A DNA stretch of 64,000 nt from Candidatus Poribacteria bacterium (GTDB taxonomy: Bacteria; Poribacteria; WGA-4E; WGA-3G): positions 62,001 through 126,000 of the forward strand of contig JAJEIE010000018.1 in NCBI GenBank assembly GCA_022827625.1, read 5' to 3'. The position numbers and the translations under genes were made by a program. Shown here in pieces: positions 11,261 through 29,700 of the stretch (the first letter of the stretch is position 1; each line of letters begins with the position of its first letter). Below the pieces are notes generated by a model that was not told where the DNA came from, made no database searches, and saw nothing but the letters and a program-made list of their open reading frames with translations.

Positions 11261-11466
11261 TTTATAATAAACGGGAGTTTGAGGCTAAAATAGGGTATCA
11301 CAACCTTGGTTGAAATAGTGGTCTAAATTTCCGAGGGCATTATTGTGCTATCTTGCATTGCAACGTTGTAGCGAAAAAACCATGTATTGCCAGTTCATCG
11401 GGTATTAACCGGACACGGCACTCGAGGGCAAACGTGAAAGAATTACTCTAAAAACTGGATAAAATG

Positions 11467-12645
11467 CTAAGGGGCTGTAGGGACTTGGTACTTACTGTTG
11501 CCGTGGGCACGTCGGGGAGCAGGAGATGGACAAATATATCGAAAATCACAAGCAACACAAGTATCTTCGTCCCCTGACGGGACCCACTGATCTAAAATAT
11601 TTCCGGCTACAACTTCCTGATTAACACAACTCTCAATATCTATAACTACCCTATCAAAGCGTTTTGCTGCTTCTTCTGCCCCTTCTGAATCTACCGGAAT
11701 AACTCGGATCGCGCGGGCAAAACGATAATCAAGAGAAAAATCGGGGATACTGTTTCCTGACTTCCACATGTTTAGCAAAGATTCATCCTGACTACCCGGT
11801 TTCGGTATAACATCAGTCTGTACATTTCTCACTGCTTTTTTAAGATCCTCAAGTTCTCGAGCGGACGGAGCAAGTTCGTTGATATATAAAAGCACACCCG
11901 CGGCAACAGGCAACGAGTCTGGTTGATTATTCCGTAGCCATGCGTATGTTTTTACTTGCCACTCCCCTTGTTTCCAATATTCATGATCTGTGGTTGGACG
12001 TTGTGAACCTTTGTAATCAATAATGACTTCAAAATCGCCTGTAAGGTCTGGGCACACCTTTTGAATTGCTTGACGAATGACGTTAGTGTTTGGAACTTCT
12101 GTGAGACTAACGTTTGTAACGACATCAATTATTCCGTGAAGTTCATATTTTTCAGCACGTATCGGGACTGAGTGGTCCGCTAGCACAGGAACATCTCGAG
12201 TTCCAATAACTTTTTCCTCTGCCAGTTGAATTAGAGGAAATAGGTGTTGTCCTAAATTGTTAACTGCTTGCTCTGCTCGTTCATAAGCAGATCTACGCGT
12301 TTCCGTACTACGCGGATTTTTACCTCCGGCTCTTAGGGTACTCTCTACCATATCACCGATAGTCCCTATGTCGTGAAGTTCCCGGTCTGCCGGAGGGTCT
12401 CCTTGATATGGCGTTGGATTTGAAGGCCAAGGAAACAGTGGGGCATCAGATTTCCAAATTCTATAGGCGTTCTCCATAACGCCGTGAATAAATTCACCAA
12501 ACCAGAGTTGAACAGGACGCGATGGTGGAAGGGAGCTCTGGTTATGGTACCGGTACTGTAGTCCGCACCTTAAGAAAGAGATGAGATCTCCAGTTAAACT
12601 ATAGGAAGGAATGATAGGATTTTCGGTCTTTCGCGCAAGTTCCAT
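11467..12645 (-). CDS. Fe-S cluster PD-(D/E)XK nuclease (AddB/Cas4-like)
   Basis: Predicted 392-residue nuclease with the RecB/AddB/Cas4-type fold. A motif-I His lies in GEFIHGVMENAY (H54). D174 is in HGIIDVV, the core motif is D210-Y-K212 in VIIDYKGSQ, and motif QxxxY follows in WQVKTYAWL (Q230). Four cysteines, C27 and then C363-x2-C366-x5-C372 (CVACDFRYIC), match the split iron-sulfur ligand pattern of AddB and Cas4. The helicase stop codon lies 5 nt upstream of the ATG at 12645. A GGGAG ribosome site sits within the helicase gene end, giving strong coupling; an in-frame TTG at 12660 is less likely. With the UvrD-family partner it should make a helicase-nuclease machine, but it lacks the inactive-helicase half of AddB. 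Last gene of the NurA-HerA-TGT-UvrD operon. Confidence 0.85.
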   Translation of the reverse strand: MELARKTENPIIPSYSLTGDLISFLRCGLQYRYHNQSSLPPSRPVQLWFGEFIHGVMENAYRIWKSDAPLFPWPSNPTPYQGDPPADRELHDIGTIGDMVESTLRAGGKNPRSTETRRSAYERAEQAVNNLGQHLFPLIQLAEEKVIGTRDVPVLADHSVPIRAEKYELHGIIDVVTNVSLTEVPNTNVIRQAIQKVCPDLTGDFEVIIDYKGSQRPTTDHEYWKQGEWQVKTYAWLRNNQPDSLPVAAGVLLYINELAPSARELEDLKKAVRNVQTDVIPKPGSQDESLLNMWKSGNSIPDFSLDYRFARAIRVIPVDSEGAEEAAKRFDRVVIDIESCVNQEVVAGNILDQWVPSGDEDTCVACDFRYICPSPAPRRAHGNSKYQVPTAP

Positions 12646-12650
12646 ATAAC

Positions 12651-15035
12651 TTACTCCCAAATCAGATGAATAGGTAAATTATTTGCCTGTACCGGATTGC
12701 TCCCACTAACTGGAGTTTTCCAACTCCATTCGCTGTTGGATTTCCATCCCATAGCTACATGTTTTATAGTGGTGTTGTAACTGAGGCAAGAGTCCAATCC
12801 GACCAACAGTAATATAGATTGTGGACGACTATATGCCACGTAATAAAGTCGAATGAGGTCATCGAATGTTCGTGCTAATGATCCACGGTTCATACGCAAT
12901 GGACCAACCTCGCAGTAAGGTGCCAAGTCATCTTCCAAGTTCTGCACAGCAGATGCTCTTTCTGGAAAACGTCGAAATCGTTGCGCAGGATGGTTTCTTT
13001 TATAATCGGAAGCTACATCAACAATGACTAATGGATATTCTAACCCTTTGGCTTGATGAACTGTCATAAAAGGAAAATGGCTCCGAGGCACATGAGGCAT
13101 GATGTCTTCATCAACTTCAACACTCCCTTCAGCTATTGGCACAAGAATATCAGAGATTGCTCTTCGAATGCTTCGTTCTTCATGTTCCGACTGGTCAAAA
13201 AAGATTTTAGAACGGTAGGACGAGAAGACAGCAGCATTTGAAATACAACGAGCAACGGCTTCCATGTAGACCTGCCCCTCTGGATCATCGTGCAGTTCAG
13301 GAATCCAAGTGATAATCGCGAAACACAGTTCTAAAAGAGGCCATTCACTTGGCCATCCATTTAGACGCTGTGTTTTTCTAAGTTTCCAATTTTGAACATA
13401 GTGAGAAAGTCCCGTCGGTTGGTTCGGAATTGGGTTGGTTCCAATAAAATTCCGAGCGGCCTCGCGCCAGCGATCTAAGGTTCTCGCTTCATGGCGAAGA
13501 TAGCGAAGTCGATCTTGTTGTTCACTTTCAGGGTCTATGCACTCTAAAATGATGCCGAGCAACTGTTGAATTACCGGTATATCCCTTAAGGAACGGCCCC
13601 GGGGGTTGAACACATTAATTCCGCGTTCCTCAAGGCGTTGTCGTAAGAGAAATGGTAGACGTTCTTTTTCCCTACTGGAAAATTCATTTACAGTATGAGA
13701 AAGAAAAACGCTATCTCCAAAATCTCCGCTATCTTTGTTTTTCATTATTGGGTACTGCTGCCCCCCAACTTCTATATGATAGCCATCTCCCCTAAACACA
13801 TCCATTAAAAATGATGCTAAGTTGTCAGCAAGCGTTTCTTGGTTAGAGCGGAACATACCCAGCACAGGCATCTGATTAGATGGATTTTGTGCAATTATTT
13901 GCGGTTTTTGGGAATGAACCCGCGCGGGGGCGAAATCTGGATCGTTTGTGACAAACTCGTTAAAAAATTTGACAATCTCCGGTGTCGATCGGTAATTTTC
14001 CACAAGATATTTGACTTCTGGTGCCTGAGATTTGTCAAAAACTTGATTGAAGCGCGCAATAAAGTCCCTAAACAGTTCTACCGTAGCCCCCCTAAATCGG
14101 TATAGCGACTGATCGTCATCACCCACTATCGTAAAAGAAGCACCGGAACGGCGAACGAGCTCAAAGTAGATACTTTCCTGTAATGGATTTGTATCTTGAT
14201 ACTCATCAACAAGTAATGCCTTTAGGTTTGATGTGAACCTCTCATCGAATTTACCTTGTACAAGTTGTTGAAAAAAAAGCTCCTCCAACTGGGCATAATC
14301 CAATTGATTGTTGTTATTCATGTATTCACGGTACGATTCAAAAGCACTGACGATTGCACTTCGAGCTTCACTATCTTCGGTAGATTGCTGATATTGCTGT
14401 AAATTGACTTGGTCATGAACAAATCGATCTATGATAGTCCGGCAGATGTCAAGTTTTTCCTTGAAATTTCTCGGTTGGTTGCTAAAAAAAGTAAAATTAG
14501 ACAAATATTCCGCCAGTTCGTCGTTGTTGTGAGCTCCTGTTGCGAATAATCCTTGATTCCTGAAAAGTGCGTTGTTAACGAAACCTTCCACAATGACCGG
14601 GACCGGATCAGATGGAGAGCGAACAGTTGTTAATACGTCGTTGCAAATGCTGTCCAATGTTCCGGTTATGAATTGATTTATGTCAATTGAATCCAGTAGA
14701 TTCTGAGAACCTAATATCGGGTAGGAGGAAGTGTTTTGGAGGTAAGAGATGATGCTTGATCCCCATTCGATTAAACGCGCACGAATTTCTGCTGCTGCCT
14801 TCCTTGTAAACGTTGTGATTAGGATTTCTTCAGGACGAAAGCCTTCCACGAATACCAATCGTAATGCCCGAAGAACAAGTACTGTTGTTTTTCCACTTCC
14901 TGGTCCGGCAACAATCATTAAAGGCGTTTCTGCGGGATGTATAATACATTGCTCTTGATTTTGGTTTGAAGGAGAGGTTTGAAATCGGGGAATTGCCTCC
15001 TGGACAAGTGAGACGAAACCTTTCGATGCAATCAT
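12651..15035 (-). CDS. UvrD/Rep/PcrA-family DNA helicase
   Basis: Superfamily 1A 3'-5' DNA helicase of 794 residues with the full motif set. These are the Q-like QNQEQCI segment, Walker A AGPGSGKTTVL (~43-51), motif Ia TTFTRKAAAEIRARL, Walker B LLVDEYQDTN, motif III VGDDDQSLYRFRGA, motif IV VENYRSTPEIV, motif V TVHQAKGLEYPLVIV and motif VI YYVAYSRPQSILLL. It is not the housekeeping form by context. It lies 57 nt after the transglycosylase gene and 5 nt before the Fe-S nuclease gene on the same strand. No nuclease domain is fused; the neighbour supplies it. Likely role: unwinding or resecting DNA within this gene cluster's pathway. Confidence 0.93.
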   Translation of the reverse strand: MIASKGFVSLVQEAIPRFQTSPSNQNQEQCIIHPAETPLMIVAGPGSGKTTVLVLRALRLVFVEGFRPEEILITTFTRKAAAEIRARLIEWGSSIISYLQNTSSYPILGSQNLLDSIDINQFITGTLDSICNDVLTTVRSPSDPVPVIVEGFVNNALFRNQGLFATGAHNNDELAEYLSNFTFFSNQPRNFKEKLDICRTIIDRFVHDQVNLQQYQQSTEDSEARSAIVSAFESYREYMNNNNQLDYAQLEELFFQQLVQGKFDERFTSNLKALLVDEYQDTNPLQESIYFELVRRSGASFTIVGDDDQSLYRFRGATVELFRDFIARFNQVFDKSQAPEVKYLVENYRSTPEIVKFFNEFVTNDPDFAPARVHSQKPQIIAQNPSNQMPVLGMFRSNQETLADNLASFLMDVFRGDGYHIEVGGQQYPIMKNKDSGDFGDSVFLSHTVNEFSSREKERLPFLLRQRLEERGINVFNPRGRSLRDIPVIQQLLGIILECIDPESEQQDRLRYLRHEARTLDRWREAARNFIGTNPIPNQPTGLSHYVQNWKLRKTQRLNGWPSEWPLLELCFAIITWIPELHDDPEGQVYMEAVARCISNAAVFSSYRSKIFFDQSEHEERSIRRAISDILVPIAEGSVEVDEDIMPHVPRSHFPFMTVHQAKGLEYPLVIVDVASDYKRNHPAQRFRRFPERASAVQNLEDDLAPYCEVGPLRMNRGSLARTFDDLIRLYYVAYSRPQSILLLVGLDSCLSYNTTIKHVAMGWKSNSEWSWKTPVSGSNPVQANNLPIHLIWE

Positions 15036-15092
15036 GTAATCGAATTATCCTTTCATAGTTTTAACAAAATTTTATGGCACTATGTGGGGAAA

Positions 15093-16838
15093 TCACGTAC
15101 CTGACTTCTTTGGAGATTTCTTAGATTTTCCATGCAAAATTTTATGATAAAATACCCAAGTGTTGTGAAATCCCCTTCGTCTGTTACGATTTGCCCCCCT
15201 GAAGACTACAACATTAATACCTAATTCCTTGCAAATGTGGCACCTACATTTTTTCCAAGGTTGATCTCTCATTAATCGCTTATGTTCATGAATAAAATGA
15301 TTACCTTCCCCTTTCCGTTCAAGGAGTGGTCCATATTTTTCAACACTATCAAGGACCTTCTTTTCTGATTCCGGCGTTCCATCAAAATCGTCAAGGTTTG
15401 ACAGACACCGATTTTCTAATTCTTCCAATTCTTTAATGGACATTGAATTAGATTGTGCAGCAGCGCGCATCGCTTTTGATGTACTCATAGGAACTCGTAT
15501 GGTCCCGTACCAATCACCTTCTCCATCAGGGGCTAGGTAATTCCGATCCGAACTCAGCCATGCTTTCCTCAAATAAGACGCGCTATCAAAACTGGAAACC
15601 CCTAGATTCTGAAAACTGCCTTGAAGATTCGGTCGAAGAACACCAAAAAGGTGAACCCAAATATTCTCTTTTTTACCACAAGTATGTTTTTGCAAGGTCT
15701 CACGAACAGCAGCCACTATTTCCAGAATCTCAGAATCTTTTCTGCGGACAAGTCCACCGAGTGCAACATGCTTATATCCCATTTCAATGTACCTTCGGAC
15801 ATAAAACACATAGTCGTCACGAGTCACACCTTGTATGGAACCAACCGGGGCAAATTCATATTTATTCTCTTTACAAATTTTTAAAAATTGTTTAGCATTC
15901 TTTTCGGTTAAGTCCATCCGTTCTTGTTTTTCTTCGGAAGTTATTGATGGAATCGGAATATGATCGACAGATGCCCCTAGATTAAAACCAAATTGACTAT
16001 AGAGAGATGCTGCTTTTTCGGGGCTAATCGGAGGCTCAGAATCTGCGGTGTATGAGAATGCTCCAGGGTCTCCAAACAAGAGCATATCTTCAGGCATTCG
16101 CCTATCGTCGCGCAGATTGAATGTGCCTTTTTGCTTAAGGCGACTCAGGGGACCCTTCCCAGTTTTCAGTTGAGCAAGACTAAAGAGTAAACCATCATAA
16201 GGGGGTGCCTCCTCAAAAATCTCGTGTGCATAGCGTCTGTTAATGTAATGTCTATCTTCAGGTGTTTCATTCCCTCTAAAGGGTTCATAAACGTAATCAT
16301 CCCAATCCGGAAAGAAGTAGAGACAAGAATGCTTGTTTGCACCTTGAATAGGAATTGCGGCGGTACTATTTGACAAATTATACAACCAGTTTTTCATCGC
16401 TTGCTGTTTTCTTCCAATCCCACCTTCAGCATAGATAATTTTGTCAGAACCAAATAACGTTGTAATGCAGGAAATTGCTGGCAGATAATCTTTGCCCAGA
16501 TTGACGAAAACGGATGTTGGTAACCCAATTTCTTTCAAACTCTGCATGACCTTTGGACGTATTTTTTTCGCTGCTTCCTTATTCAAACGCTCGTCGTAAG
16601 GTTCAATGAGTGTAGTAGCATCAATGATCTCATACTTAGCAGAGATAATTTTTATCATGAGGCCGGGAGGCCATCCGTTCTCCCTGAGAAACTTTCGTAA
16701 CACTCGGTAGTTGGGTCCGTCATAAACCTCAAGAGCTGGAATTTGACCGAAACTCTCAATTTTCTTATTTGAACACCCTAAAATTAGTAAACACCCCGCC
16801 GCAGATTCTTGAGAGTTAGGTTGCAAACATTTCAACAT
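15093..16838 (-). CDS. TGT-superfamily base-exchange enzyme, DpdA-like, with N-terminal DUF6884-like domain
   Basis: Predicted 7-deazaguanine transglycosylase of 581 residues. N-terminal part (~15-150): a DUF6884/YaaA-like domain (LLILGCSNKK, IPALEVYDGPNYRVLRKFL, IKIISAKYEII). Middle: a TIM barrel with tRNA-guanine-transglycosylase landmarks. D257 in FGDPGAFSY and D292 in SVDHIPIP lie at the base-recognition positions. VGSIQGVTRDDY and VALGGLVRR follow. The presumed nucleophile is D418 in SSFDSASYLRKAW. C-terminal: an intact TGT zinc site, C531-x-C533-x2-C536-x21-H558. Bacterial DpdA enzymes of this superfamily insert preQ0 into DNA. The ATG at 16838 follows the HerA stop by 5 nt; a GTG at 16862 would overlap it. 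No preQ0 biosynthesis genes lie nearby. DNA rather than tRNA as substrate is inferred from the helicase/nuclease neighbours. Confidence 0.82.
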   Translation of the reverse strand: MLKCLQPNSQESAAGCLLILGCSNKKIESFGQIPALEVYDGPNYRVLRKFLRENGWPPGLMIKIISAKYEIIDATTLIEPYDERLNKEAAKKIRPKVMQSLKEIGLPTSVFVNLGKDYLPAISCITTLFGSDKIIYAEGGIGRKQQAMKNWLYNLSNSTAAIPIQGANKHSCLYFFPDWDDYVYEPFRGNETPEDRHYINRRYAHEIFEEAPPYDGLLFSLAQLKTGKGPLSRLKQKGTFNLRDDRRMPEDMLLFGDPGAFSYTADSEPPISPEKAASLYSQFGFNLGASVDHIPIPSITSEEKQERMDLTEKNAKQFLKICKENKYEFAPVGSIQGVTRDDYVFYVRRYIEMGYKHVALGGLVRRKDSEILEIVAAVRETLQKHTCGKKENIWVHLFGVLRPNLQGSFQNLGVSSFDSASYLRKAWLSSDRNYLAPDGEGDWYGTIRVPMSTSKAMRAAAQSNSMSIKELEELENRCLSNLDDFDGTPESEKKVLDSVEKYGPLLERKGEGNHFIHEHKRLMRDQPWKKCRCHICKELGINVVVFRGANRNRRRGFHNTWVFYHKILHGKSKKSPKKSGT

Positions 16839-16843
16839 AATTC

Positions 16844-18745
16844 CTATTCCGGTTTCCGCCACTTGTTTTCTATTGGGCGGGGTCTCTCAGCTCCAGGTTC
16901 ACTATATCTGTTTCTAATCTTGACCAGTGGAGACATTCTGGTTTTCAGAGCATCACCTGTGACAATAGCAACCCCTTCTTTAACAGTCTTCAATATTTCC
17001 AAATCTGGGTTGGATAGAGATTCACCAACATCTCGGATATAAGACTGATCATCTGGATTAATAACACGGTGCAAAATCAACGTATTGGCTTGCGAAGTGG
17101 TTAACGAATCCACTGAAGCAGGCTTTTGTGAGATAACAAGCATGCCAAGACCCATTTTCCTTCCCTCGGTCGCAATTTGCTGAGCAGCAAACCGGGCAGC
17201 CTTTGTGGCAGGATTTATTTCTCCGCTACTACTACTTTCCTCTTGGCGTGGGATCAATGTTCTTGCCTCCTCAAGAGCAAATAAAATGGGATGTGCATTT
17301 TCCCCCATGATAAAATGCTTTGATTTATACCGATCAAAAGCAAATTCCATAACTGCCCACACCAAGGTTCTTCTTACCTGATTGTTTTCTAAATCTGATA
17401 AATTAAATATTGCTGTTGATACATTTGTCATCTTACCATCTGTAGAGCAGAAAAGATCTACAAAATCCCTAATATCCATTGACCCACAATCACGAACTCT
17501 TAGATTCTCAACAGTCTGTATTGCTCGTCTCAGTATTCGTTCAATCGGGGGTCTAGACACAGATTCGCCCATATTATTGGCTCTTCGCATAAGGTGATTA
17601 AGAAGGCTAATATCTTGTAAATTTTTTCGCTGTTCTTCTGTCAAACCTTGGAGCCAAGGAATAACAAAACCCGTTTGTGCATCTCTGAAATTTTCTCGTG
17701 CCATTGCTTCGATTAATCTCATTGTGAAGTAAGGACCCTGATCTGGATACATTTTAATCTTTGGATAAGCATTAAGATTAAGGGCTAACATTCGATTAAC
17801 CAACTCTCGCGGTAGAACATTTTCATTTTGCCAGTCAAGTTGCTTGATTCCGTCAATAATATCATTCAATAGTTGTTCGGGAATCGATGCTGAATCAGCC
17901 GAATCAACCATTAAATGGCGATTTTTAATTAAACAAAAATTAAACAAGCGATAGAAAATGTTCTCATCCATCAACTCAGTTTCGATTTGCTCAGAATAAA
18001 AATCATCGAGATTTGGCAATTTCTCACGTAAGTATCCCTTATAATCCGATATTTTTTTTATTAAATCTTCATCATTTTCGATCTTCAACTTGAACTCATC
18101 ATACAACTTACGACGGATTTTGTTGAGATTTACATAGTCCCCGTGTGGATCGAATACAATAGTTTTCGCTCCACGGAACATCAATTCCTCTAATATTACA
18201 GCTGTCGTGGTTGTTTTTCCCATTCCCGTCATACCAAAAACACCAGCATGCATTGTTACGATTGAGTCCGCGTTTAAAGATACTTGTGCTTGTGTTTCCC
18301 GGCCAGGAATCTCAACATGTCCGAGGGAAAGATACCACGGTTCACTCTCTGAGAATAGTTTTATCAGAATATCATCCGATAGCAGATTTACTGGCACACC
18401 GGGTTGTATCGCTTGCGTTAAGGGATCTATTTTGTTCTTTGTGCTATTGTATACCCCCATCACTTCACATTTGGCTTGATACAGTGTGAATCGGTGCGAT
18501 ATTATATCAGGAACCGAAAATCCTAATGTTTCGTGCTCTGAATAAAATTTTGCAGTGTCTTTTGCCAAAAGTGGGTTCTCTGTATTCACATCAACAACCT
18601 TAGCAACAACCTTATCGTCGCTTTCAGGTAAATCAACTTCAACATAGGAAAATTTCAATTGATTTTGATGCTCGCCATCTATATCCCCAAACAAAAAAGA
18701 AAACTCTTGTGTTGATGTTTCACCAAAGATTATTCCTAAAGCCAT
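16844..18745 (-). CDS. HerA-like hexameric DNA-translocating ATPase
   Basis: The 633-residue FtsK/HerA-superfamily ATPase has an N-terminal HAS-barrel-like region (~1-140). Walker A follows at 171-178 (GMTGMGKT) with the HerA-type FDPHGDY stretch shortly after. Walker B with adjacent glutamates appears late (ILFALEEARTLIP). It also carries the sensor/arginine region (RKMGLGMLVISQKPASVD) and a C-terminal SNPDLEILKTVKEG... GDALKTRMSPLVKI segment typical of HerA. Start ATG with GGAGG 7 nt upstream. It lies between a NurA-like nuclease gene (14 nt upstream) and the transglycosylase gene (5 nt downstream). HerA-NurA pairs are known from archaeal end resection and from bacterial defence systems. 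Coupling to a transglycosylase is the unusual feature here. Confidence 0.9.
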   Translation of the reverse strand: MALGIIFGETSTQEFSFLFGDIDGEHQNQLKFSYVEVDLPESDDKVVAKVVDVNTENPLLAKDTAKFYSEHETLGFSVPDIISHRFTLYQAKCEVMGVYNSTKNKIDPLTQAIQPGVPVNLLSDDILIKLFSESEPWYLSLGHVEIPGRETQAQVSLNADSIVTMHAGVFGMTGMGKTTTTAVILEELMFRGAKTIVFDPHGDYVNLNKIRRKLYDEFKLKIENDEDLIKKISDYKGYLREKLPNLDDFYSEQIETELMDENIFYRLFNFCLIKNRHLMVDSADSASIPEQLLNDIIDGIKQLDWQNENVLPRELVNRMLALNLNAYPKIKMYPDQGPYFTMRLIEAMARENFRDAQTGFVIPWLQGLTEEQRKNLQDISLLNHLMRRANNMGESVSRPPIERILRRAIQTVENLRVRDCGSMDIRDFVDLFCSTDGKMTNVSTAIFNLSDLENNQVRRTLVWAVMEFAFDRYKSKHFIMGENAHPILFALEEARTLIPRQEESSSSGEINPATKAARFAAQQIATEGRKMGLGMLVISQKPASVDSLTTSQANTLILHRVINPDDQSYIRDVGESLSNPDLEILKTVKEGVAIVTGDALKTRMSPLVKIRNRYSEPGAERPRPIENKWRKPE

Positions 18746-18759
18746 TGCATTTCCTCCAT

Positions 18760-20382
18760 TTACCCTCGGTTATGAAAATCTCTTGTTAACTTATTGGTTA
18801 CCATTAAAAAAACTTCCCTTAAACTGCTACCATTTAATCCACGTTGATGAAAAGTTCGATTTACTTGTTCAACTAAGTGCCATTCAGTGACCGTCGAAAT
18901 AATTTTCTTCGGCATTCTTACCATTTTATCAGCATAATATAAGAAGATAGGTAAACCGTAACTGCTGTATGGAAGACTGGCAACATAAATAGAGGCTAGC
19001 ACATCGTTCCACGTTTCCGCAGTTCCTCGCTTTAAGAATTCAACTCGGATAGGGGCTCTTAGTTCACTTGTCCGTACGAAACTCATTAACATTTTGTAGT
19101 CACGAAAAGGAAACAACCTATTTATAATATCGGAAATGTAGCCCTCTCGTGGATCTCCTGAAGCAGATGATGAACCAAACGTAACGTTAAATATACTGTT
19201 ATTGGTATCAGTGGTAAAGTATCTTCGGATCGGCACAGGGTTAGTAAATTCTGATTCAATCGAATGTTCACCATCAAACTTCAACGAAAAAGATTGAATC
19301 ATCTCATCATCCCATCCTGATTTGATAATGAATTCCTGAAATTGATCCACGAAATTTTCTTCGCTGAACTCCACATCGTAAGTTTCAAACAATCGGCGAA
19401 GGATTGTCTGGTTATCAGAATTTTCTTGTCCGAAACGTTCGATTTGGTACTGGACATACAGTCTTGAATATTCCGTTGAATGAGCAGTTTCGACACAACC
19501 AATTATGGGATAGTTCCTCTTATCGGCTAAATCTGATAACTTTCTGAGCAGTGAAAAATAGATACATATCCCTGGAATTTCCCCTTCATTAATTCTCCGC
19601 TCAATTTCATCTTTTTTTTCCCTAGAGGCATCAAAGAAATGAACAAAACGGTCTACACAAAATTCATAATCCGCTTCTTCGACTATCAAATCCAATAGAC
19701 TACCGTCCGCAATAGTTCTCACTTCAGCATCAACATTGGGGGGTGGTTCAATATCCGCGGTGAGGAGTTCCTTTATATCTTCTTTCCGAAAGAGAAGGCT
19801 CAGAAACGGGCCGATGTGTCGAATTAGTGGTCCGTGGAAAATAATAGAGTATATTGATTCACCTTCAAGGATTTTTGCAGTATAAAAGGCAACATATAAA
19901 TTAAGAAGGTAGGGCAAAAATTGCATTTTACGTTCAAAATCCTCTTCATTTTCATCTTGAAGACGAAGCATTGACGAAACTGTGAGTATCTTTTCCGTCT
20001 TGGGCGTTTGTGGATCAGGGATCTTATATCCGAACGCGCAACTATGCCTATACGCAACTTGACCCACAAAACTCTCATTGTCAACGATAGATTCATCCAC
20101 CGAAATTATCCACTTTCCTTTCATCTGGGAACAAACTTTCGACAAGATATTTCTATCAAATTTCGACCTTCCTATAGTATACGTGTCGGGTCCTATGTCC
20201 TTTTCACAAGATATACCAGTAATTTTCCTAATGTAGTCATTTCCTAAAAACTCAACACTTGTGTCAATTTTTGCTCCAAGTTCATTTCCAGACAATGCTT
20301 CAAATTCTGCCAAAAGGTTTCTTATCACTCGGTTTCCAGCATCTCTAAATGCAGTATCGGTTAGAAATTGTCGTCCGTTCAT
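18760..20382 (-). CDS. NurA-like nuclease, putative HerA partner
   Basis: Assigned mainly from context and sparse motifs. The 540-residue protein has an acidic strand motif D96 in WIISVDES, comparable to the NurA VDGS site. It also has IIFHGPL, where NurA proteins usually read hhDGPL, so the Asp is His183 here. A later IIGCVETAHSTEYSRLY resembles the NurA basic/helical segment. The frame opens at a TTG at 20472, but the ATG at 20382 is preceded by AGGAG 8 nt upstream and is preferred. The HerA-like gene follows after 14 nt. A missing metal-binding Asp could mean a divergent or inactive nuclease, or that the alignment used here is wrong. First gene of the five-gene operon. Confidence 0.6.
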   Translation of the reverse strand: MNGRQFLTDTAFRDAGNRVIRNLLAEFEALSGNELGAKIDTSVEFLGNDYIRKITGISCEKDIGPDTYTIGRSKFDRNILSKVCSQMKGKWIISVDESIVDNESFVGQVAYRHSCAFGYKIPDPQTPKTEKILTVSSMLRLQDENEEDFERKMQFLPYLLNLYVAFYTAKILEGESIYSIIFHGPLIRHIGPFLSLLFRKEDIKELLTADIEPPPNVDAEVRTIADGSLLDLIVEEADYEFCVDRFVHFFDASREKKDEIERRINEGEIPGICIYFSLLRKLSDLADKRNYPIIGCVETAHSTEYSRLYVQYQIERFGQENSDNQTILRRLFETYDVEFSEENFVDQFQEFIIKSGWDDEMIQSFSLKFDGEHSIESEFTNPVPIRRYFTTDTNNSIFNVTFGSSSASGDPREGYISDIINRLFPFRDYKMLMSFVRTSELRAPIRVEFLKRGTAETWNDVLASIYVASLPYSSYGLPIFLYYADKMVRMPKKIISTVTEWHLVEQVNRTFHQRGLNGSSLREVFLMVTNKLTRDFHNRG

Positions 20383-20579
20383 AGATTTTACTCCTATAGA
20401 TGGAATATTTAGTACCACACCTGCAGACAAGTTGACAGCATGGGTATCTGCCGGAGCTTTAGATTTTATCAAGTCAGTAGATTAAGGCTACGAATCGCGA
20501 TAGAAACTTCGTGATTAGGCAGGGGAGTTTGACAAAATCCCTCCAAAGTTCATTTCCTTTGCATCTATCCTCTATCACA

Positions 20580-20678
20580 CTACTTCCATATCAGCGTCTT
20601 TCGCGTGGCAGTAAATTCACCAACTTTCAGTGTATAGAAATAGACACCACTCGCCATAGGCTCCCCGACTTCGTTTCG
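20580..20678 (-). pseudogene. C-terminal remnant of a FlgD-Ig/sorting-domain protein
   Basis: A 32-codon open segment on the minus strand reads RNEVGEP, MASGVYFYTL, KVGEFTATRK, TLIWK and then a stop. This is the characteristic last strand pair of FlgD-Ig-like or type-IX-sorting-like C-terminal tails (SGVYFYTL... TATRK). Two stop codons (TGA TAA) lie immediately upstream in the same frame, and no start is present. It is the severed tail of a larger surface-protein gene, left at the edge of the NurA-HerA-TGT operon. Confidence 0.75.
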
Positions 20679-20708
20679 TTATCAGAGACTCCTTTCAATG
20701 AGATCATC

Positions 20709-20717
20709 ATTATAGCA
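20709..20717 (-). promoter_or_regulatory. Extended -10 promoter-like motif upstream of NurA-HerA-TGT operon
   Basis: On the minus strand the sequence reads TGCTATAAT, a perfect TGnTATAAT extended -10 element. The -35 region is weak. It lies ~330 nt before the NurA-like ATG, with only the non-coding remnant between, so it could start the operon transcript. Confidence 0.4.
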
Positions 20718-20811
20718 CAATCTTGATTTAGACAGTAACCTAAATTTCTGATGACAGGACAACTTTATCTTTTCATCTATTTTTCCTATGGCAAGGAAGC
20801 GTGATAACAGT

Positions 20812-21504
20812 CTAAAAGTAAAAATTCATTCCACCACTAACAATGGGGTAGTATTTATCAAATTCACGCGATCCACGTATGAGAAAACTAAAGTATTCCA
20901 TTATTTGAAATTCTATACCACCTTCAATTCGCGGATTATTAAAATAAGAGTTAGACTTCAAATTAAATCTTAATGAGTGTGAGATAGCTACAAACGGCTT
21001 AATCACGTAAGTAGAAGAGGCAGGTGCTAAGTTCAGAAATATACCAGAACTGGTCGTTGTGAATAAATCTATTGAACGGATTCCCGAAAGATATGTCTGC
21101 CCACCTCCCCAGTCACTTTGAAAAAAATATCCAAGGTGCGGCATCCATATTTTACCTATATGCATAAACTTTGCTTTCAAACCAAACAATGGGAGGATTT
21201 GTGTAGTGGTCCCTGGATCCCAAGAGAAATCCGTCATGATGGATGTCTTTAAATCCGCAGTGTGGCCCCAATCAAGACTTACTACTATTGTGTGAAGTGT
21301 ATCGGATTCTTTATGGTACCTATTGTCATTCAAGCCATATCCAAAACTAAGTGCCGTTTTTCTCTCTGGGAGGTCATATAAATTCATTAATTGGGCAGAA
21401 GCCGGTTTAATGAGCAGCATGAAAAAAAAAGTAACAGTTATAATTGAAATGCGTCGGAAGCCTTTGAAATTTAGGATCCGCTCTTTCTCAGTTAGGACAA
21501 ACAT
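20812..21504 (-). CDS. Predicted outer-membrane beta-barrel protein
   Basis: The 230-residue protein has a signal peptide (hydrophobic IITVTFFFMLLIKPASA, cleavage near SAQ). Alternating-hydrophobicity strands rich in Gly, Tyr and Phe follow, and it ends in aromatic NFYF, the usual barrel C-terminal signature. An AAGGAG ribosome site precedes the ATG at a short distance. No specific family recognised. It is transcribed toward the NurA-HerA operon but separated by the remnant region. Relation to that operon is unclear. Confidence 0.65.
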   Translation of the reverse strand: MFVLTEKERILNFKGFRRISIITVTFFFMLLIKPASAQLMNLYDLPERKTALSFGYGLNDNRYHKESDTLHTIVVSLDWGHTADLKTSIMTDFSWDPGTTTQILPLFGLKAKFMHIGKIWMPHLGYFFQSDWGGGQTYLSGIRSIDLFTTTSSGIFLNLAPASSTYVIKPFVAISHSLRFNLKSNSYFNNPRIEGGIEFQIMEYFSFLIRGSREFDKYYPIVSGGMNFYF

Positions 21505-22613
21505 GGTTCTCCTTTATAGTTTATACTACTCCATGCAGGCGGTAGTTGGAAGCAGGGCAGGCCCCGCAGTGTCCCTCTAAATTCGGATTGTCAAATTTGA
21601 ACAACAAAACTTGTCTTACCTTATTGATTTTCGACCTAAGTTAACGGTGGCACTGCAGTTCGAGTAAATTGGTATCTCATGTAAGTTCTATGCCATGCCC
21701 ACGTTTGTGCGACTTACAAGACTTACCACCGATATATGATACCTCTATACCGATGCAAACGACAACCTCCTCAAGTACACAATGCCTACGGTTTTGCTTA
21801 CGCAGTGTGACTCGCGCAAGACCTTTTATAATTAAAGACACACTCTGCTGAGAGAAAGGGTGCAAAACATCAAAAATCCGAACCGATGCCATTAAACCTG
21901 CCACCTATTTTCGGCTTGGCATTGCGAGGGTTAGCACTATTTGCACCTTGTCTCTTGAAATTTACCAGCCCCAATCTTTTATCCGCTGCCCATGTATGCC
22001 AATGAAAGGCACACTGAGAGACATCGGAAGCGTATGATGCCCGATTTCGGCAGATGATAATTAGGTAGGTTTGGGCGTTCCAGCGGAGTTTGTGAATGAG
22101 GTGTGAATTGCTTTTGACAGCGGCACCTGAGACAAAACGGTTTTTTATCTAAATCAATTGACACGATGCCAATAAATAGTTGAAGAGAAATGCTGCTCTC
22201 ATTTGCATATCTTCTCAATAGAAAGATGGTGACAGTATAGCAGCATACGCTTTGGAACGTCGAGGATATGCGTGACACTAAAAATTAAAATTAGGGGATA
22301 CTTATAAAAACAAGCACAATTCGTGGATTGGATACCAAGGCGAGTGAGTTTGTCCAAGAACCCAGATGGGGAGTTGCTTCGGACGCAATTTTGTCGAAAA
22401 ATCGCGTTGGGTTCAGTGTTTATAACGATTTATCGGATTTGAGACTCGTCTGGGGCGAAAATAGGATGACTGAATGTGCCTTCCCATTCGTTGGGAATTG
22501 AAACTGCTGAATTACGCCTGCTCACAATTGAATACGAAGATGAGATACCTGATCTTTAGTAGGACAATTTATTACTGGCCCATACTTACGGCAAAACCCT
22601 CGCAGATTGCTAC
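21505..22613. other. Gene-poor region, 1.1 kb
   Basis: No convincing gene, RNA or insertion sequence in 1.1 kb. Short open frames on both strands (for example 21677-21904 minus and 22328-22501 plus) lack ribosome sites and recognisable motifs. They may be remnants. The region lies between the barrel gene and the PorV-like gene and looks like decayed DNA at the border of the NurA-HerA-TGT island. Confidence 0.5.
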
Positions 22614-23633
22614 CTAAAACCGAATCCGAAGAGACATACGATGGCTGCCGCCTAATGCTGGGTGGTTCGCAAAGGCATAGTCCAAGCCTGCTCCTGCACC
22701 GGTGACAAATCGGAGGTTCAAGCCTGCTCCTGCTGTTAATTGGCGGACACTCTCAAGACTCCCACTCCGTTCTGCAAGTCCGATCCGTAAAGCGAGTAGG
22801 TCAAAGAGTGTCCATTCCGCGCCGGCGTGCAGTTCAACGCCGTCTTTGATATAGGTATCCAAGGCAAGAATCAGCACACTTCGGAAAGCAGTGAGTTTAT
22901 GTGTCGTTGCGACACCAATTTTGAGGGTAGGGTCAACCGTTTCGGTGTGCGATGTGAGATTTTCCGATGGCGGTGGCGTGTTCCAATACAGTTTTGTCTG
23001 AAAGGCATCGCTCACTTGTAGACCGAGCGTCAGTTGATGCGGCTTTTCTGGGTTTGTCATTGCAATGAAACCGATGTCCGAACCCCCACCAATGGCGTTC
23101 GTGCTCCGATAGCCACTCATGTAGAGAAGTTTAAGTGTGACACCTCCCCGAAGATCCATACCGTAGAGAGACGGGAGCCGCAAGCCCGATGCGAAGAGGA
23201 AGGCGTTATCGGTATTGTTGAAAGTGCCTATCACTTCAGGTCGGTTCGTCGCCCCGATGGGACGGCTGGCAACCGGCAGTCCCGTGATCGGAATGTCGTC
23301 AACACCGACACGCAGCCAGCTCACACCAATGGCGCCTCGCTCTTTGAGCGGATGGACGTAACTGACGAAATCGTAAGCATCTTCCCCATTGAGTGTGGAA
23401 TGCATGAAACTGACTTCGTATCGGGTCAGTTGCCCCAATGCAGCGGAATTCCAGTACGGGGCGTAAGCGTCAGCACTCAGGGCAGTCCCTGCCCCCCCCA
23501 TTCCAAGAGCGCGGGCACCGACACCGAGGGTCAGGAAATCAGCCGTATATTTCGCGTCTGCGGATAGAAGTCCAATACAGAACGTAATTAGAGACGCAAT
23601 AAAGTGAAAGGTATTTTTTTTCTGATGTTTCAT
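22614..23633 (-). CDS. PorV/PorQ-like outer-membrane protein
   Basis: The 339-residue protein starts with a signal peptide (FIASLITFCIGLLSADA). It continues with the UPF0164/PorV signature FLTLGVGARALGMGGAG and AYAPYWNSAAL, then barrel strands, ending in SLRIRF. In Bacteroidota, PorV is the shuttle that hands type IX secretion cargo to the PorU sortase. Here a PorU-like gene lies directly upstream on the same strand (23765-30037), separated by a family A repeat. The pairing supports a PorV role. No ribosome site is seen before the ATG, where the repeat region begins. Exact PorV versus PorQ/FadL-like identity is not settled by eye. Confidence 0.75.
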   Translation of the reverse strand: MKHQKKNTFHFIASLITFCIGLLSADAKYTADFLTLGVGARALGMGGAGTALSADAYAPYWNSAALGQLTRYEVSFMHSTLNGEDAYDFVSYVHPLKERGAIGVSWLRVGVDDIPITGLPVASRPIGATNRPEVIGTFNNTDNAFLFASGLRLPSLYGMDLRGGVTLKLLYMSGYRSTNAIGGGSDIGFIAMTNPEKPHQLTLGLQVSDAFQTKLYWNTPPPSENLTSHTETVDPTLKIGVATTHKLTAFRSVLILALDTYIKDGVELHAGAEWTLFDLLALRIGLAERSGSLESVRQLTAGAGLNLRFVTGAGAGLDYAFANHPALGGSHRMSLRIRF

Positions 23634-23640
23634 ATTTTTA

Positions 23641-23763
23641 TCGTTAATGGTTAATAGTTGTTAGTCAGAAGGCATTTGTAACAATTTACCAATTCTTGGA
23701 GTACCCAAAGTACAGTGAAGTGTTACAAATAGCCTTTTAACCAACCACCAGCCACCAATAACC
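23641..23763. repeat. Heptamer-flanked palindromic repeat, family A, copy 2
   Basis: Left GTTAATGGTTAATAGTTG heptamer-like run. Palindrome arms GGCATTTGTAACAATTTAC and GTGTTACAAATAGCC flank a CTTGGAGTACCCAAAG centre. Right CCAACCACCAGCCACC run. It fills the gap between the PorU-like stop codon and the PorV-like start. Confidence 0.85.
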
Positions 23764-23764
23764 G

Positions 23765-26700
23765 TTACCGCAACTTCATCATTTTAAGTATTTCGGTAAT
23801 GTCTTTTTCACCGTCTCGCTTGATTTGGAGTTTTGCGTAGTAAACGCCATTCGCTACCTCAATACCATCGGCATCCCGACCGTCCCACTCTACCATGAGG
23901 AACCCTGGTGTTGCCGGCATCGAAAGTTCACGGATAAGCCGTCCGCTCAGTGTGTAGATTTTCACAACGAGCGAGTCAGCAGGTGCTGTTAGCTCACACG
24001 TGAGCGTCGTTTTCCGCGGGAACGGATTTGGATAGTTCAGGAATGATAGCAACTGCAAAGTATCGTGAACCCGGAATGTGATGCTTTCCGTGTCAGTGTT
24101 TCCGTGTACATCGCTGGCTGTGAGTCGAATCTCATATTCCCGCGGTTCGAGTTCAGGAGATAGATATGTTAAAACAAGCTGATTCGAGCCGGGATGATAG
24201 GTTAACTGATAGGCTTCGGGATTGATGGGTTCATACGAGAGCCCACTTCCAAGCTCCAACAAAAATGAACGGGTGAGATAGTCGATACCACTTGGATCCG
24301 TTAGCGTTGCTCCGATGAGAGGTTCAGCGTCCGTTGCATCGCCCGGGACAAAATGTTGCTGATTCCCAATCGTCAACTGTATGTCGGGGGGTACAGCATC
24401 GTCAGTATATAAAAGTGTGACCGTTCCGAGCCGATCCGTTGTGGCTCTAATGGTCCCTACAGGCCGGGTTTCAAACCGAAACCTGTCCCCCGGTTTGAAA
24501 GAACGCGTGCTTTGCGTAATCTGGAAACGTAAGCCGTAAGGTGCGTAGACAAAAGGTTGCCCGACTGTCCCGCGGAGGGGAGCATTTCCACCGGATTGAG
24601 ACCGTAAGATACCCGTTTTCTCTCCCTCAATTTGAAATTCTGTGTCAGTGAGGAAAAGGATAATCCACCGATCCTCTGGCATAGCGGTATCCGGTGGGAG
24701 TTCAATGGAACTGACAACTCCGGTGCCTCGGTTGACATCTCCGAATCCTGATGCATACCATCGGAGCTCTTGTTGGAAAGAGATGTCTGGATCAGTATCC
24801 AAGGGTTGTTCAAGCGCAGTAATGTTGAATGTCCAAACGTCGCCGAACCTGAAGGGCTTTTCTGGATCAATTTCCACGTTAACATCAAATCCGTGTCTGA
24901 AGTTAGGGAAGTCTGGACTAAAACCTGCGAGTTGCTCTCTCGGTGCAATAACTTCCAATTCTCCCAACGTCTGCGTTCCTTCTGTGAATGGGGCACGGAG
25001 GAGTCGATAGGTTTGCGGACCTGTGAAAAGCAAGACGTATTTTCCAGTTGGTGCGCCATCTGGATGGATGCGAACGTTCCGAAGTTCACCCTCGCCAACG
25101 TTTTCTGCCCCTATGTCGGTTCCGTGTATCCGTCGCTGCAATGTCCCCGCAGCATCAGTCAATAACTGCGAGGGAAGCCGAATCCAGTTGCTGAGCGTTG
25201 GACTCCACTGATAAACACCTATCTCACGTGCGCGGGACTCAACTGCAGTGCCAATTGTGGCGGCTGTATCCGAAACATCCGTAACCTCCTCTGTACTTCC
25301 TAACAGTTCTTTAGCGAGCTGCGTACCGAGCGCACCAAGATCGAAACCGAAGTCAATCGCTACCGGAGAAGCCAGAGAAGCAGTTGTCGGCTGTCGGCTA
25401 TCGGAAACCGTTGGTAACTCACTTGTGGCATTAAAAGTGTTTTCATCTGCGCCTGACTGCTGGTTGCTGATTGCCAGTTCATAGCCGTAAGCGTTACCGG
25501 GTAGCGGAGCACGTTTGGTGGAATGGCTGTCGGAAACCGTCAGGGCGTTCTGCTGCAAATTACTTGTGGTCTCAGGTGTCAGTAATCCATTGATAGCTGA
25601 AAGCGTAGCGACCCGAAGCACAGTTGGATTTTGAAGGACACCCGGTGGCGCAGTGACAACGCAGTTTCGATCCAAACTCGAAATCTGATTTGAAGAGGTG
25701 CCGCCTATCACACCCAGGTCAACAGAGATTTGTCGGTAGGTGATGTTATCGTCTTCCTCGTTTTCAAGGACTTTGCCGGATTGATCTGCTTCACCAAAGT
25801 TTGGATCCACATAGACAAATATATCGTGCATACCGGAAGGTAACCCGCGCCGATCAACATTTTCCTGTTGTCCATCGGTAAATGGAAAGTTCGCTGTCAG
25901 TGGAAGGGTAGCGGTCGCGATTGGCAGTGTGTTCAACGGATCGGGTTCATAAACATCTTTTTCCCCACGCCGACTTTCAGCATTCGCTAACGGCGTGCGT
26001 TGTATCCAATCTCCGGGTTGAATGCGAGCGGTTCCGAGGAGATTGGCACCATCATCAATAATCGTATCGTCGTCAACATCAGGATTACCGTAAAAGAAGG
26101 CGACTTCAACAGGCGTTTGTACCTCATCCCCCTCTACCTGAACATCTGCTGAGAGGGCCCACTGCTGTGCTTGAGTGTTGTAGCCGTATCGAATAACAGC
26201 GGTTCTGGCTACCTCTACAACAGAAAGATTCGGATGTACGTAAGGATAATACCGTAACACCTGACTTTCAACCGCATTGCCATCTGTGTCCGTGACTTGA
26301 ATACTGTATCGGATGAGAGAACCATCTACGGGGGCCTCAAGGGGTTCAGGGACCGTCCACCATCCCTCTGCTGCTAACGGCGGCGGGGCTTGGATGAGAC
26401 TCACATTTTCCCACTGTCGGCTTATCGGGTTACGCCAACTCAAGAGTGCTGAGGCTATCTGTTCTTTCTCGTCGGAAACCTGAACAGAGATACGGAATTT
26501 GTCTTCAGCGATTAACTCGGCCTGGACATCAAGAATTTTTGGAATATTAACAGTAAATCCATCACCCCCGACAGCGACCGTCGTGGGATCTTGTGCGTAG
26601 TACTCAACGTGTGCATCACCGCTGGCAATGTTTTGTGGAACAGTGAACGTCACCGCTGGATAGGCACCATTGCTAACATTAAGCATTTGCGTCAAAATTA

Positions 26701-29700
26701 CATCACCGGTGTAGTAATTAACGGGGCCTGAGATGCCTTGTGCGATGACTGTTTTCCCAGGGAATAAAGCCTTTACGATAAGTGTGCCATTAAAAGTGGT
26801 ATTTCTTACAAAACGTTTGCTCCGTTCCAATGGATCGTAGGTAGCAGTCTGAACGTATCCGGGAGCAACTCGGAGTGTATCGCCCGGCGCAACCGTTTTC
26901 GTCTCAATATTAGGCAGAATTTCGCCGTCAGCGATAGCAAGCTGTAAAGCGGGGTCTCCGAAAAGCGTATACTCCATCATGACATCAATCTGACCTGTGC
27001 CCTCTGTTATTAGCAGTTCCGTTTTTGAATCAAAACTCAAGGGCCCGAGTTGTCGGATGTTCCGTTTAAAAAGCATGTCAAAGATAATCCGATTGAGGGC
27101 ATCATTACCGCTTCCATACGTAAGCCGAGTGGCACTCAGCATACCAATGATACCGCCTCTCTCTTTTCGCAATAGCTTCTCCGCCATGCTGGGTTCACCC
27201 GGTTTATCAAAGTAGCCGTTATAACAGCTGAGTACCAACATGAAAGGGATCTTTGCTGTCTCCTCGACCTCCTCAACGTCTGCGTTGTCAAATATTGATT
27301 CGTGTGTCCAGACAGTCCTACCGCCATGACCGGCGTATTGCGCCAAGACCGCTCCTTCCCCGAGTGCCTTGATAATCCTGTCTCTTGCGATGTAGCGTGG
27401 CAAGATGTTTGAATAATCTGCTGGACGTGCCTCAACTTCGTCGATAACATCCTCAAGAAAGACCTCAATGGTTTCATAGCCCAAACGGGTATGGTCCTTC
27501 GCGATTTCGTTGAGACTCTTTTTGAAGATAAAGTCTCCTGAGTTACTAACTTCATCGTCAGCGACAGAGATAATCTTTCTACGCCAGTCGCCACTGGGTG
27601 GACTCTGTTCATAAGCCAAGATTTTATCAACAACAGTCTCCGATTGACTAACAGTTTCAACGCTGAGCCTCCCGATGTAGAAATCGGTGAACGCATCGTG
27701 TCCTGAAACCGTCGCGTACCAGTGATCGGCGGCAGTTCGACCAAATGAATCCGTGCGAAGATAGTGCGTCGGAATATAACCATCGAGTTCGGGGGGTTCG
27801 AGGTGAATTTCTGTGTCAACGCCGCGAAAATCAAACGTTCCGTCACCGAAAAGGACAACATAAGACAGTGCTGGCGGTGCCCAAGATTGATAAGCGTGTG
27901 TCAGAAATGCCTTGATTGCCTTAGGGCTGACCGCTCCGTTGTTGAATGTGTTGTATATTTCGTCAGTTGTAACGACCCTCGTACGATATCCGCCGCCGCC
28001 AGGTGTTGCGCGCCACGCCGCTAATCTTTCCGCTGCAGATAGGAATTTTGAATGTGTCACGATTAAATAATCGGCACCGTGATTGGCAGTGGCTAAGTCT
28101 GTTGGTGCGATAATTTCAATACGTTCTGGCTGCCGTAACGCCGTATCGGAAACAGCGATAAACTCGGCGTTTCGGGTGTCCAGCATCTGAAAAAGCGCGT
28201 TATATGAATGAGGGTTTTCTATATCTGTCTCCACTCTAACCCCTTGCATGCGAGCGGTGAGCACATTGCCATCCGTTTCAAAGATATGTACACCGGGATC
28301 GTCAAACGCCTTAATTTCGTACTGAAGTTTACGTCCACCTGCGGGTTTCTTCTGTGAAGTTGCATCTGGCGTAGGAGATGTGAACCACAATTCATCGGCA
28401 ACAGCGCGGAAGAGACGTGTGTACTCAACAGAAAAACGGTTGAGATAGACATGATAGGGATACCGGGTTGTGTCTTCGTCAACGTTATCATCAGCGCGGG
28501 CAAGGGAGAGGACATTTTGTTCGCCGTTCCTACTATCTTTGAGTGTATCCCATGCCCGTAAAGTCCGTTGAACAGTGAGCGTGTCCTGCTGTTCCCATTT
28601 TGCAAATTCTATTCGGACTCCGTTGATAGCGACTAAAATTTCATGGGATACCGGTGTGCCACCTTGCAAATCGACAGAGATGTGCAGCGGGTCAAAGCTT
28701 TTTGCGACATCATAGAGTGGAAACTCAAGGCGCATTTCGCCAACATCGCTACCGTTTTTGATGCCATCCCAGTACCAGAAATCCAGTGCTTCGAACCATC
28801 CGTGTTTGTTGCCGGGCGAAACGGTATTTGTATACACAAACTCGAGGTTATTTGTGAGGTAATTCTCTTCAAAGGTTAATTTAGAGCGGAAGGTAGGTAC
28901 CTGTGTCGCCGTTGGGTCTGTGGGGCTGACGGTCATCTGTGGGACCCGCGCAGAGATGCGCCGTCTACTGTCAAGCGTAAGCCAATAGATGCTCCAACGA
29001 CTATAGCGATTTTTCGGTTTATGTCCAAGGAAAAAGATGACATCTTCTGGATCAAAACGGCCGTCGCCCGCGCCGCTAATGTAGATAGGAATGTTTCTAT
29101 TCTCGTGCGTGAGTCGGAGTTGTGTTGGATCTGCTCCAATGAGCTCTATACCCCAGTCCTGCTGTAGCCCTCCTGCCGTCACAGCATAGACTCCGGTTTC
29201 TTCGACGAATAACTTATAGCGGACACTCTCGGAAGCCTCGTTAGGAACGAATGCTGGTGCCGCAGGTATTAAGGGACGGGGGACTCGGAAATTACGCGCC
29301 TGCTCAGCATTGAGAAGTTGATGGGACAAGGCACGTTCAAAGACTTCTGATTCTGAATGGTTGCTGGTTGTCAGTTGTCGGTTGTTAGTTAAAGCGGGAC
29401 TTCGTTCAAGGGATCCACTGTTTAACTGACCACTGATAGCCGATGACTGAGCACTGCTAAAACGGATGTTCACTGTCAGGTGTGAATACAGACGCAGTTG
29501 ACGAGTTCTCGGCAGATACTGCACTGGATACAACGCTAAGGCAATGACACGTTGGCTGCGGATGTAGCCTTCTCGGACGACGCGGGCAAGTGGGAATCCG
29601 GGATATAGAGCGTTTCCAGTCCTTGACTGATAGGCACTTCCGTTTTCCGTCCAATATTGTGTCGCTGCGTGTTGCGCGTTGCGTTCTTGCACGTCGAAAA

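Follow-up and report, generated by a model that had tools for sequence, protein, structure and literature searches.

Dpd islands (dpdA–dpdK) depend on preQ0, mark the DNA of their host and restrict DNA that does not carry the mark. In the Salmonella island that has been studied, DpdB is listed among the genes for synthesis. Owing to the large number of genes in the known islands, little is understood of the restriction half of these systems. Several other described systems combine related components. The BREX-related capture systems (BRC) join a HerA/FtsK translocase to a TGT homologue with a proposed role in self-marking, require PglZ, DUF6079 (BrxC-like), a STAND NTPase and DUF4007, and are described without NurA or a UvrD-PDDEXK pair (PMC12839542). 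BRIGADE systems are Dpd-like 7-deazaguanine clusters, some of them with PD-(D/E)XK nucleases. Their defining feature is the presence of YprA-family helicases, as a rule two of them, and they have been reported from halophilic archaea only (PMC12458937). Pairs of an SF1 helicase and a Cas4-like Fe-S nuclease have been tied to modification-based defence, where the earlier links are to Type III R-M or Dcm; a term search of that text found no mention of a transglycosylase (PMC5704561). Finally, the anti-phage HerA complexes and the archaeal and bacterial HerA-NurA consist of a HerA motor with an adjoining nuclease gene and are without a base-modification enzyme. Both HerA-NurA and UvrD-nuclease pairs are classical repair machines.

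The window analysed here is a stretch of 64,000 nucleotides on contig 31 of a 5.0 Mb poribacterial genome (G000), and carries an operon of five genes with features of several of these systems. Like the Dpd islands it encodes a DpdA equivalog with an intact site and a DpdC-homologous domain, and dependence on preQ0, self-marking and restriction of unmarked DNA would be expected. Unlike in those islands, DpdC is fused to DpdA, the operon holds neither DpdB nor dpdD-K, and restriction apparently proceeds via NurA-HerA and UvrD-PDDEXK; because the DpdB and dpdD-K features fail, we keep the locus apart from the standard Dpd islands. Surveys requiring both dpdA and dpdB (PMC11888242) would miss a locus of this type. 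With BRC it shares the HerA-type translocase and the TGT homologue, but none of the four components required by BRC is found among the operon proteins. The sole helicase of the operon is a UvrD-type SF1 enzyme rather than YprA, which sets it apart from BRIGADE. No description of this gene combination was found in the open-access literature, and it may have been described elsewhere.

The operon and its DpdC-DpdA fusion

Inspection of the open reading frames revealed a NurA-like gene, herA, dpdA, uvrD and a PD-(D/E)XK nuclease gene following each other in that order as a single run on the minus strand (20382-11467), where all genes and domains of the operon given below are located. With ATG starts at 20382, 18745, 16838, 15035 and 12645, respectively, the gaps of 14, 5, 57 and 5 nt between five consecutive same-strand genes, as given in the original prediction made from the sequence alone, were exactly reproduced; choosing alternative GTG/TTG starts makes two of the gene pairs overlap.

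The GC content of the operon is 41%, compared to 48.5% in both flanks. The site is bounded by anmK and a PorV/UPF0164-like gene (11261..22613, no strand assigned). A mere ~0.8 kb separates the two genes in a relative, G084, and in G057, G078 and G083 the same site has different contents. These differences mark the operon as an insertion into a variable site, as its GC content would also indicate. Adjoining the PorV/UPF0164-like gene, at 22614-30037, is a gene encoding a large C25 (gingipain-type) peptidase with a FlgD-like C-terminal domain, and this combination suggests type IX secretion in this lineage. Further along the window, at 54469-61242, an open frame of 2257 amino acids has zero Pfam matches at E 1e-5.

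The central gene of the operon (15093..16838, with an alternative GTG start at 16862) scores 326 bits against the NCBIfam DpdA equivalog (cut-off 200), 309 bits against the PADLOC DpdA model and 40 bits against Pfam TGT, and its product aligns lengthwise with the solved DNA-guanine transglycosylase 7ui4 (E 1e-61). In the DpdA/TGT catalytic domain (15117..16319), Asp265, Asp426 and the CxCxxC...H zinc ligands are invariant over 12 DpdAs and match those of the Salmonella-type DpdA. The scores against the tRNA families are below the cut-offs, both for TgtA (36 bits, cut-off 350) and for Tgt (16 bits, cut-off 307), and a separate canonical Tgt (546 bits) is encoded in the same genome. The equivalog score, the catalytic and zinc residues and the separate Tgt uphold the prediction of a DpdA-like enzyme directed at DNA rather than tRNA. 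Judging from its sequence, this transglycosylase should modify DNA and be distinct from the tRNA enzyme Tgt.

The first ~165 residues encoded by this gene form a separate DUF6884 domain (16470..16784; 34 bits with Pfam DUF6884), which the original prediction had missed. Its profile matches the canonical DpdC of the dpd island on an Enterobacter plasmid (L051) with a probability of 90% and E 1.7e-6. The PADLOC DpdC models give 470 bits on the L051 DpdC, and 32 and 46 bits on the free-standing DUF6884 proteins of loci L100 and L089, respectively. Furthermore, several DpdA N-termini match both DUF6884 and YaaA in Pfam, and the predicted structure of the domain (pLDDT 78) has YaaA from E. coli (5caj) as its top Foldseek match (probability 0.77, E 0.15). 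By hhalign alone the similarity to YaaA is weak (probability 18%); taken jointly, the Pfam cross-hits, the DpdC profiles and the top Foldseek hit weakly suggest that DUF6884 belongs to the YaaA superfamily. A survey has also named "DUF6884, e.g. dpdC" (PMC11888242). Since profiles, PADLOC models and survey all link DUF6884 to DpdC, we regard the gene as a DpdC-DpdA fusion encoding a putative single-chain modifier, the DpdC function being assigned by homology only. Comparable fusions are found in cyanobacterial plasmids, in IMG/VR contigs and in a Deinococcus dpd island.

A lack of preQ0 genes had been taken to distinguish the operon from dpd clusters. This distinction falls away, as QueC is encoded in 85/85 genomes of the phylum and QueD in the window's own genome. 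The operon does not need preQ0 genes because QueC and QueD are encoded elsewhere in the genome, and judged on these two genes preQ0 should be available to the fusion. The reported absence of dpdB-dpdK-type genes stands in part. DpdB, a DGQHR/DndB-like ATPase, is lacking from the operon, and no member of the dpdD-dpdK families was found among the five proteins and the immediate neighbours searched, but DpdC is present, in the form of the fused DUF6884. Two other genomes, G060 and G075, encode DpdA yet have no gene of the DndB/DpdB family anywhere, one of the two genomes being only 81% complete.

The helicase-nuclease modules and their linkage to DpdA

The HerA-like hexameric translocase/ATPase (16844..18745) is recognized by Pfam DUF87, the HerA central domain (81 bits), and by PADLOC HerA (138 bits), and has the Walker A motif GMTGMGKT. 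Its matches in the PDB are HerA-type chains, several of them deposited as HerA, and the closest solved relatives include what we take to be anti-phage HerA assemblies.

The NurA-like nuclease gene (18760..20382, in an open frame that reaches a TTG at 20472) is the weakest of the five assignments. Pfam NurA matches the C-terminus only, with 20 bits (E 5e-4) where the cut-off is 21. The protein has no match in the PDB, and its predicted structure, with an input of two sequences, has a pLDDT of 32. The predicted NurA-like identity thus falls short on the protein's own Pfam score. It is propped by the adjoining HerA and by locus L089, where the gene immediately 5' of a HerA gene encodes a divergent relative that reaches 35.7 bits with NurA; these weakly suggest a NurA. 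Unlike the NurA of the described HerA-NurA, it would be a divergent long form of 540-570 amino acids; D126 and an HGPL motif are invariant in this form. A second NurA type, exemplified by Picosynechococcus, is found in two plasmid records only, both with DpdA. The two groups fail to align by profile, and for that reason the suspicion, gained by eye, that His and Asp have traded places at the metal site of NurA was dropped. The L089 relative is part of one run (L089:7608-16666) encoding DUF6884, NurA, HerA, DUF6884, a second HerA-like ATPase, an unknown protein of 503 amino acids and a TGT, possibly a distinct subtype.

The second module consists of a UvrD/AddA-like SF1 helicase (12651..15035; Pfam UvrD 176 bits), in which every SF1 motif was found, and a Cas4/AddB-like Fe-S nuclease of the PD-(D/E)XK type (11467..12645; Pfam PDDEXK_1 48 bits). 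Full-length orthologues of the helicase, 38-50% identical, adjoin DpdA in plasmids and IMG/VR contigs. Over 12 homologues of the nuclease, the Fe-S cysteines C32, C368, C371 and C377 are invariant, as are H59, D179, D215, K217, Q235 and Y239. The four cysteines, the D...DxK and the QxxxY of Cas4/AddB-like Fe-S nucleases are all present in these homologues, which bears out the predicted Fe-S nuclease. The profile scores likewise confirm the HerA, TGT-superfamily, UvrD and PD-(D/E)XK assignments (81, 40, 176 and 48 bits).

Within the phylum, the distribution is patchy (10/85 genomes), and the window-type NurA is found in 8/85. The order NurA-HerA-DpdA is seen in 7/7 poribacterial loci with readable context, while the eighth contig stops inside HerA (Fisher p 1.9e-7 for the linkage, uncorrected for shared ancestry); NurA orthologues are located immediately 5' of HerA and DpdA in six genomes besides the window's. 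The complete five-gene order was found in two genomes with readable context, those of the window and G077, and is thus not unique to this contig; in G069 the contig begins inside UvrD. G057 and G060 lack NurA-HerA and have a divergent UvrD-PDDEXK pair (25-28% identical) 5' of a close DpdA. Rare as all five genes together are, both nuclease modules keep to the company of DpdA, and no window-type nuclease module without DpdA was found where the context is readable. The linkage of the transglycosylase to nucleases is conserved in relatives, in which the original prediction had proposed to test the five-gene order. Its notion of one operon joining a modifier with two machines holds in so far as the five genes are found together, but the two modules are exchangeable and do not form a fixed unit.

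Five genomes retain only a C-terminal stump of DpdA, 28-99 residues long, and all five are without NurA, which fits a joint loss of modifier and nuclease. Three or more of these stumps are located in a chromosomal hotspot flanked by genes for a tricorn protease and an acetate kinase, which elsewhere houses the intact triad. Nucleases that do harm in the absence of the mark would account both for the lack of window-type modules without DpdA where the context is readable and for the lack of NurA in the stump genomes. The loci at this hotspot (L034-L037 and L042-L046) carry NurA-HerA-DpdA or other cargo, often toxin-antitoxin-like genes.

Outside the phylum, the plasmid, phage and IMG/VR collections were sampled. 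Among 72,556 plasmid records, no more than five encode a relative of the nuclease, and in four of these, from Bradyrhizobium, Rhizobium, Picosynechococcus and the archaeon Halobaculum, a DpdA/TGT gene is located within about 11 kb (hypergeometric 2.5e-13 for the co-occurrence, uncorrected for relatedness and calculated on a pool of the 36 records that the DpdA-fusion query had found). The Halobaculum relative (L063) may be a BRIGADE member. Both Bradyrhizobium and Rhizobium encode a full dpdC-B-A-B and queEDC set beside the same UvrD-PDDEXK pair, in Rhizobium on one strand in the order UvrD-PDDEXK-dpdC-dpdB-dpdA-dpdB-queE-queD-queC. In the fifth record, from Nostoc (L064:11232-14461), a divergent UvrD-PDDEXK pair is located directly beside DISARM and not DpdA, which suggests that such pairs also serve another modification-based system.

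The two IMG/VR contigs on which this nuclease is encoded have DpdA as well, and one of them has DpdC-DpdA, UvrD and PDDEXK in the order of the window. One IMG/VR contig (L096/L100) carries two different UvrD-PDDEXK pairs, the first accompanied by a free DUF6884 gene and the second by DpdA. On a phage-derived contig, head and endolysin genes occur together with queD, queC, DpdC-DpdA, a NurA-like gene and an apparently truncated HerA; no relative of the window-type NurA itself was found in the plasmid or viral-contig collections. A tree of DpdA shows six or more changes of nuclease partner on branches with good support, and the modules are therefore exchanged.

Proposed function and alternatives

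We consider that the operon is probably, though with room for doubt, a compact modification-restriction system akin to Dpd, in which the helicase-nuclease modules for restriction are interchangeable and here both present. The host's ordinary queuosine pathway would make preQ0, which the DpdC-DpdA fusion would insert in place of guanine in the cell's own DNA and then hydrate to the amide form (dADG). Unmarked DNA, such as that of an incoming phage or plasmid, would be degraded by the two restriction modules, in one of which the HerA motor would feed NurA, the other being the AddAB-like pair of UvrD and the Fe-S PD-(D/E)XK nuclease. This proposal builds on what the sequences establish, namely the identities of the domains, catalytic residues that are intact, a linkage that is conserved and the swapping of modules; from these sequences we infer the chemical product and its sequence context, the reading of the mark, the self-marking, the anti-phage activity and the role in defence. 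Counted against it are the lack of DpdB in the operon, the repair-type nuclease pairs, the weak NurA with its pLDDT of 32, the pair linked to DISARM and the occurrence of the full five-gene form in two loci only. As a whole, the original interpretation of the operon is partly supported, and it is largely right once the fused DpdC and the preQ0 genes encoded elsewhere are taken into account.

It is unlikely, in our opinion, that the fusion acts on invading DNA instead, where the insertion or exchange of a base in phage DNA, or the removal of 7-deazaguanines of the phage, would create a mark or strand lesion recruiting the two nucleases, so that modification is the trigger. Both nuclease modules do resemble end- or lesion-processors needing an entry point, which base exchange could supply, and a DNA glycosylase acting as a direct anti-phage enzyme has precedent in Brig1 (PMC11078745). 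Brig1 was also considered as a TGT homologue and was rejected as such because it has a uracil-glycosylase fold (PMC11078745). The canonical dpd islands, however, mark host DNA, and in Rhizobium and Bradyrhizobium it is a dpdC-B-A-B and queEDC set that adjoins the same UvrD-PDDEXK pair. The phage-derived contig with preQ0 genes, DpdC-DpdA and NurA also fits self-protection.

Quite unlikely, too, is a DNA repair operon, in which both pairs would resect ends where DpdA had modified the DNA or stalled, and the mark would serve regulation or act as an anti-restriction shield, with no private restriction. The patchy distribution, low GC, variable sites, toxin-antitoxin-like neighbours and module swapping speak against it, as does the presumably anti-phage function of HerA assemblies among the nearest solved relatives. 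In its favour, HerA-NurA that have been studied work in end resection (e.g. PMC9960219), and certain unfused UvrD/Cas4-like operons are found in non-defence contexts (PMC5704561).

Although the genomic site is variable and gathers differing cargo, a chance gathering of a tRNA transglycosylase and unrelated repair genes in a defence hotspot is very improbable, given the DpdA equivalog score, the canonical Tgt located elsewhere and linkages that recur in Poribacteria, on cyanobacterial and alphaproteobacterial plasmids, on a haloarchaeal plasmid and in phage-derived contigs; the tRNA enzyme with random neighbours that the original prediction named as its refutation was not seen, as the TgtA and Tgt scores are below their cut-offs and the nuclease linkages recur.

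Returning to the Dpd-like modification-restriction system, we tentatively put forward a broader reading, to which we would give somewhat less than an even chance. Rather than a single system, Dpd marking may be a plug-in modifier, in which DpdC-DpdA works without DpdB and the restriction half swaps freely among dpdD-K, HerA-NurA and the UvrD-Fe-S nuclease pair. Helicase-nuclease end-processors that usually pass for repair enzymes would then read the 7-deazaguanine mark. The operon of the window would be the first described case in which two such machines serve one modifier, and by carrying the cassette the phage would protect its DNA. Reduced to two parts, a modifier in a single chain and helicase-nucleases of well-studied families, such a system could directly show which protein reads 7-deazaguanine and whether DpdB is needed. 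Machines resembling AddAB and NurA-HerA would thereby gain a role in self/non-self discrimination via base modification.

Further possible modification loci in the same genome

DndB-family genes elsewhere in the genome were considered as a possible DpdB and rejected, the copy on contig 25 adjoining a DndC-like gene and not DpdA. This copy belongs to an island (L118:7678-16601) that further encodes a PAPS-reductase/DndC-like protein, a protein of 1194 amino acids and a DUF4007-like protein. Judged by eye save for the DndB hit, the island resembles a BREX type 4 or phosphorothioation system. A second TGT-like gene, encoding 398 amino acids, is located on contig 26 (L047:9166-12435) beside genes for a BrxC/D-like ATPase and an unknown protein of 305 amino acids, near a DUF6884 gene and a gene for a large DNA methylase. 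The same trio of a TGT, a protein of ~300 amino acids and a BREX-type ATPase, with related TGT and ATPase, is found again in Halobaculum (L063:25782-28866).
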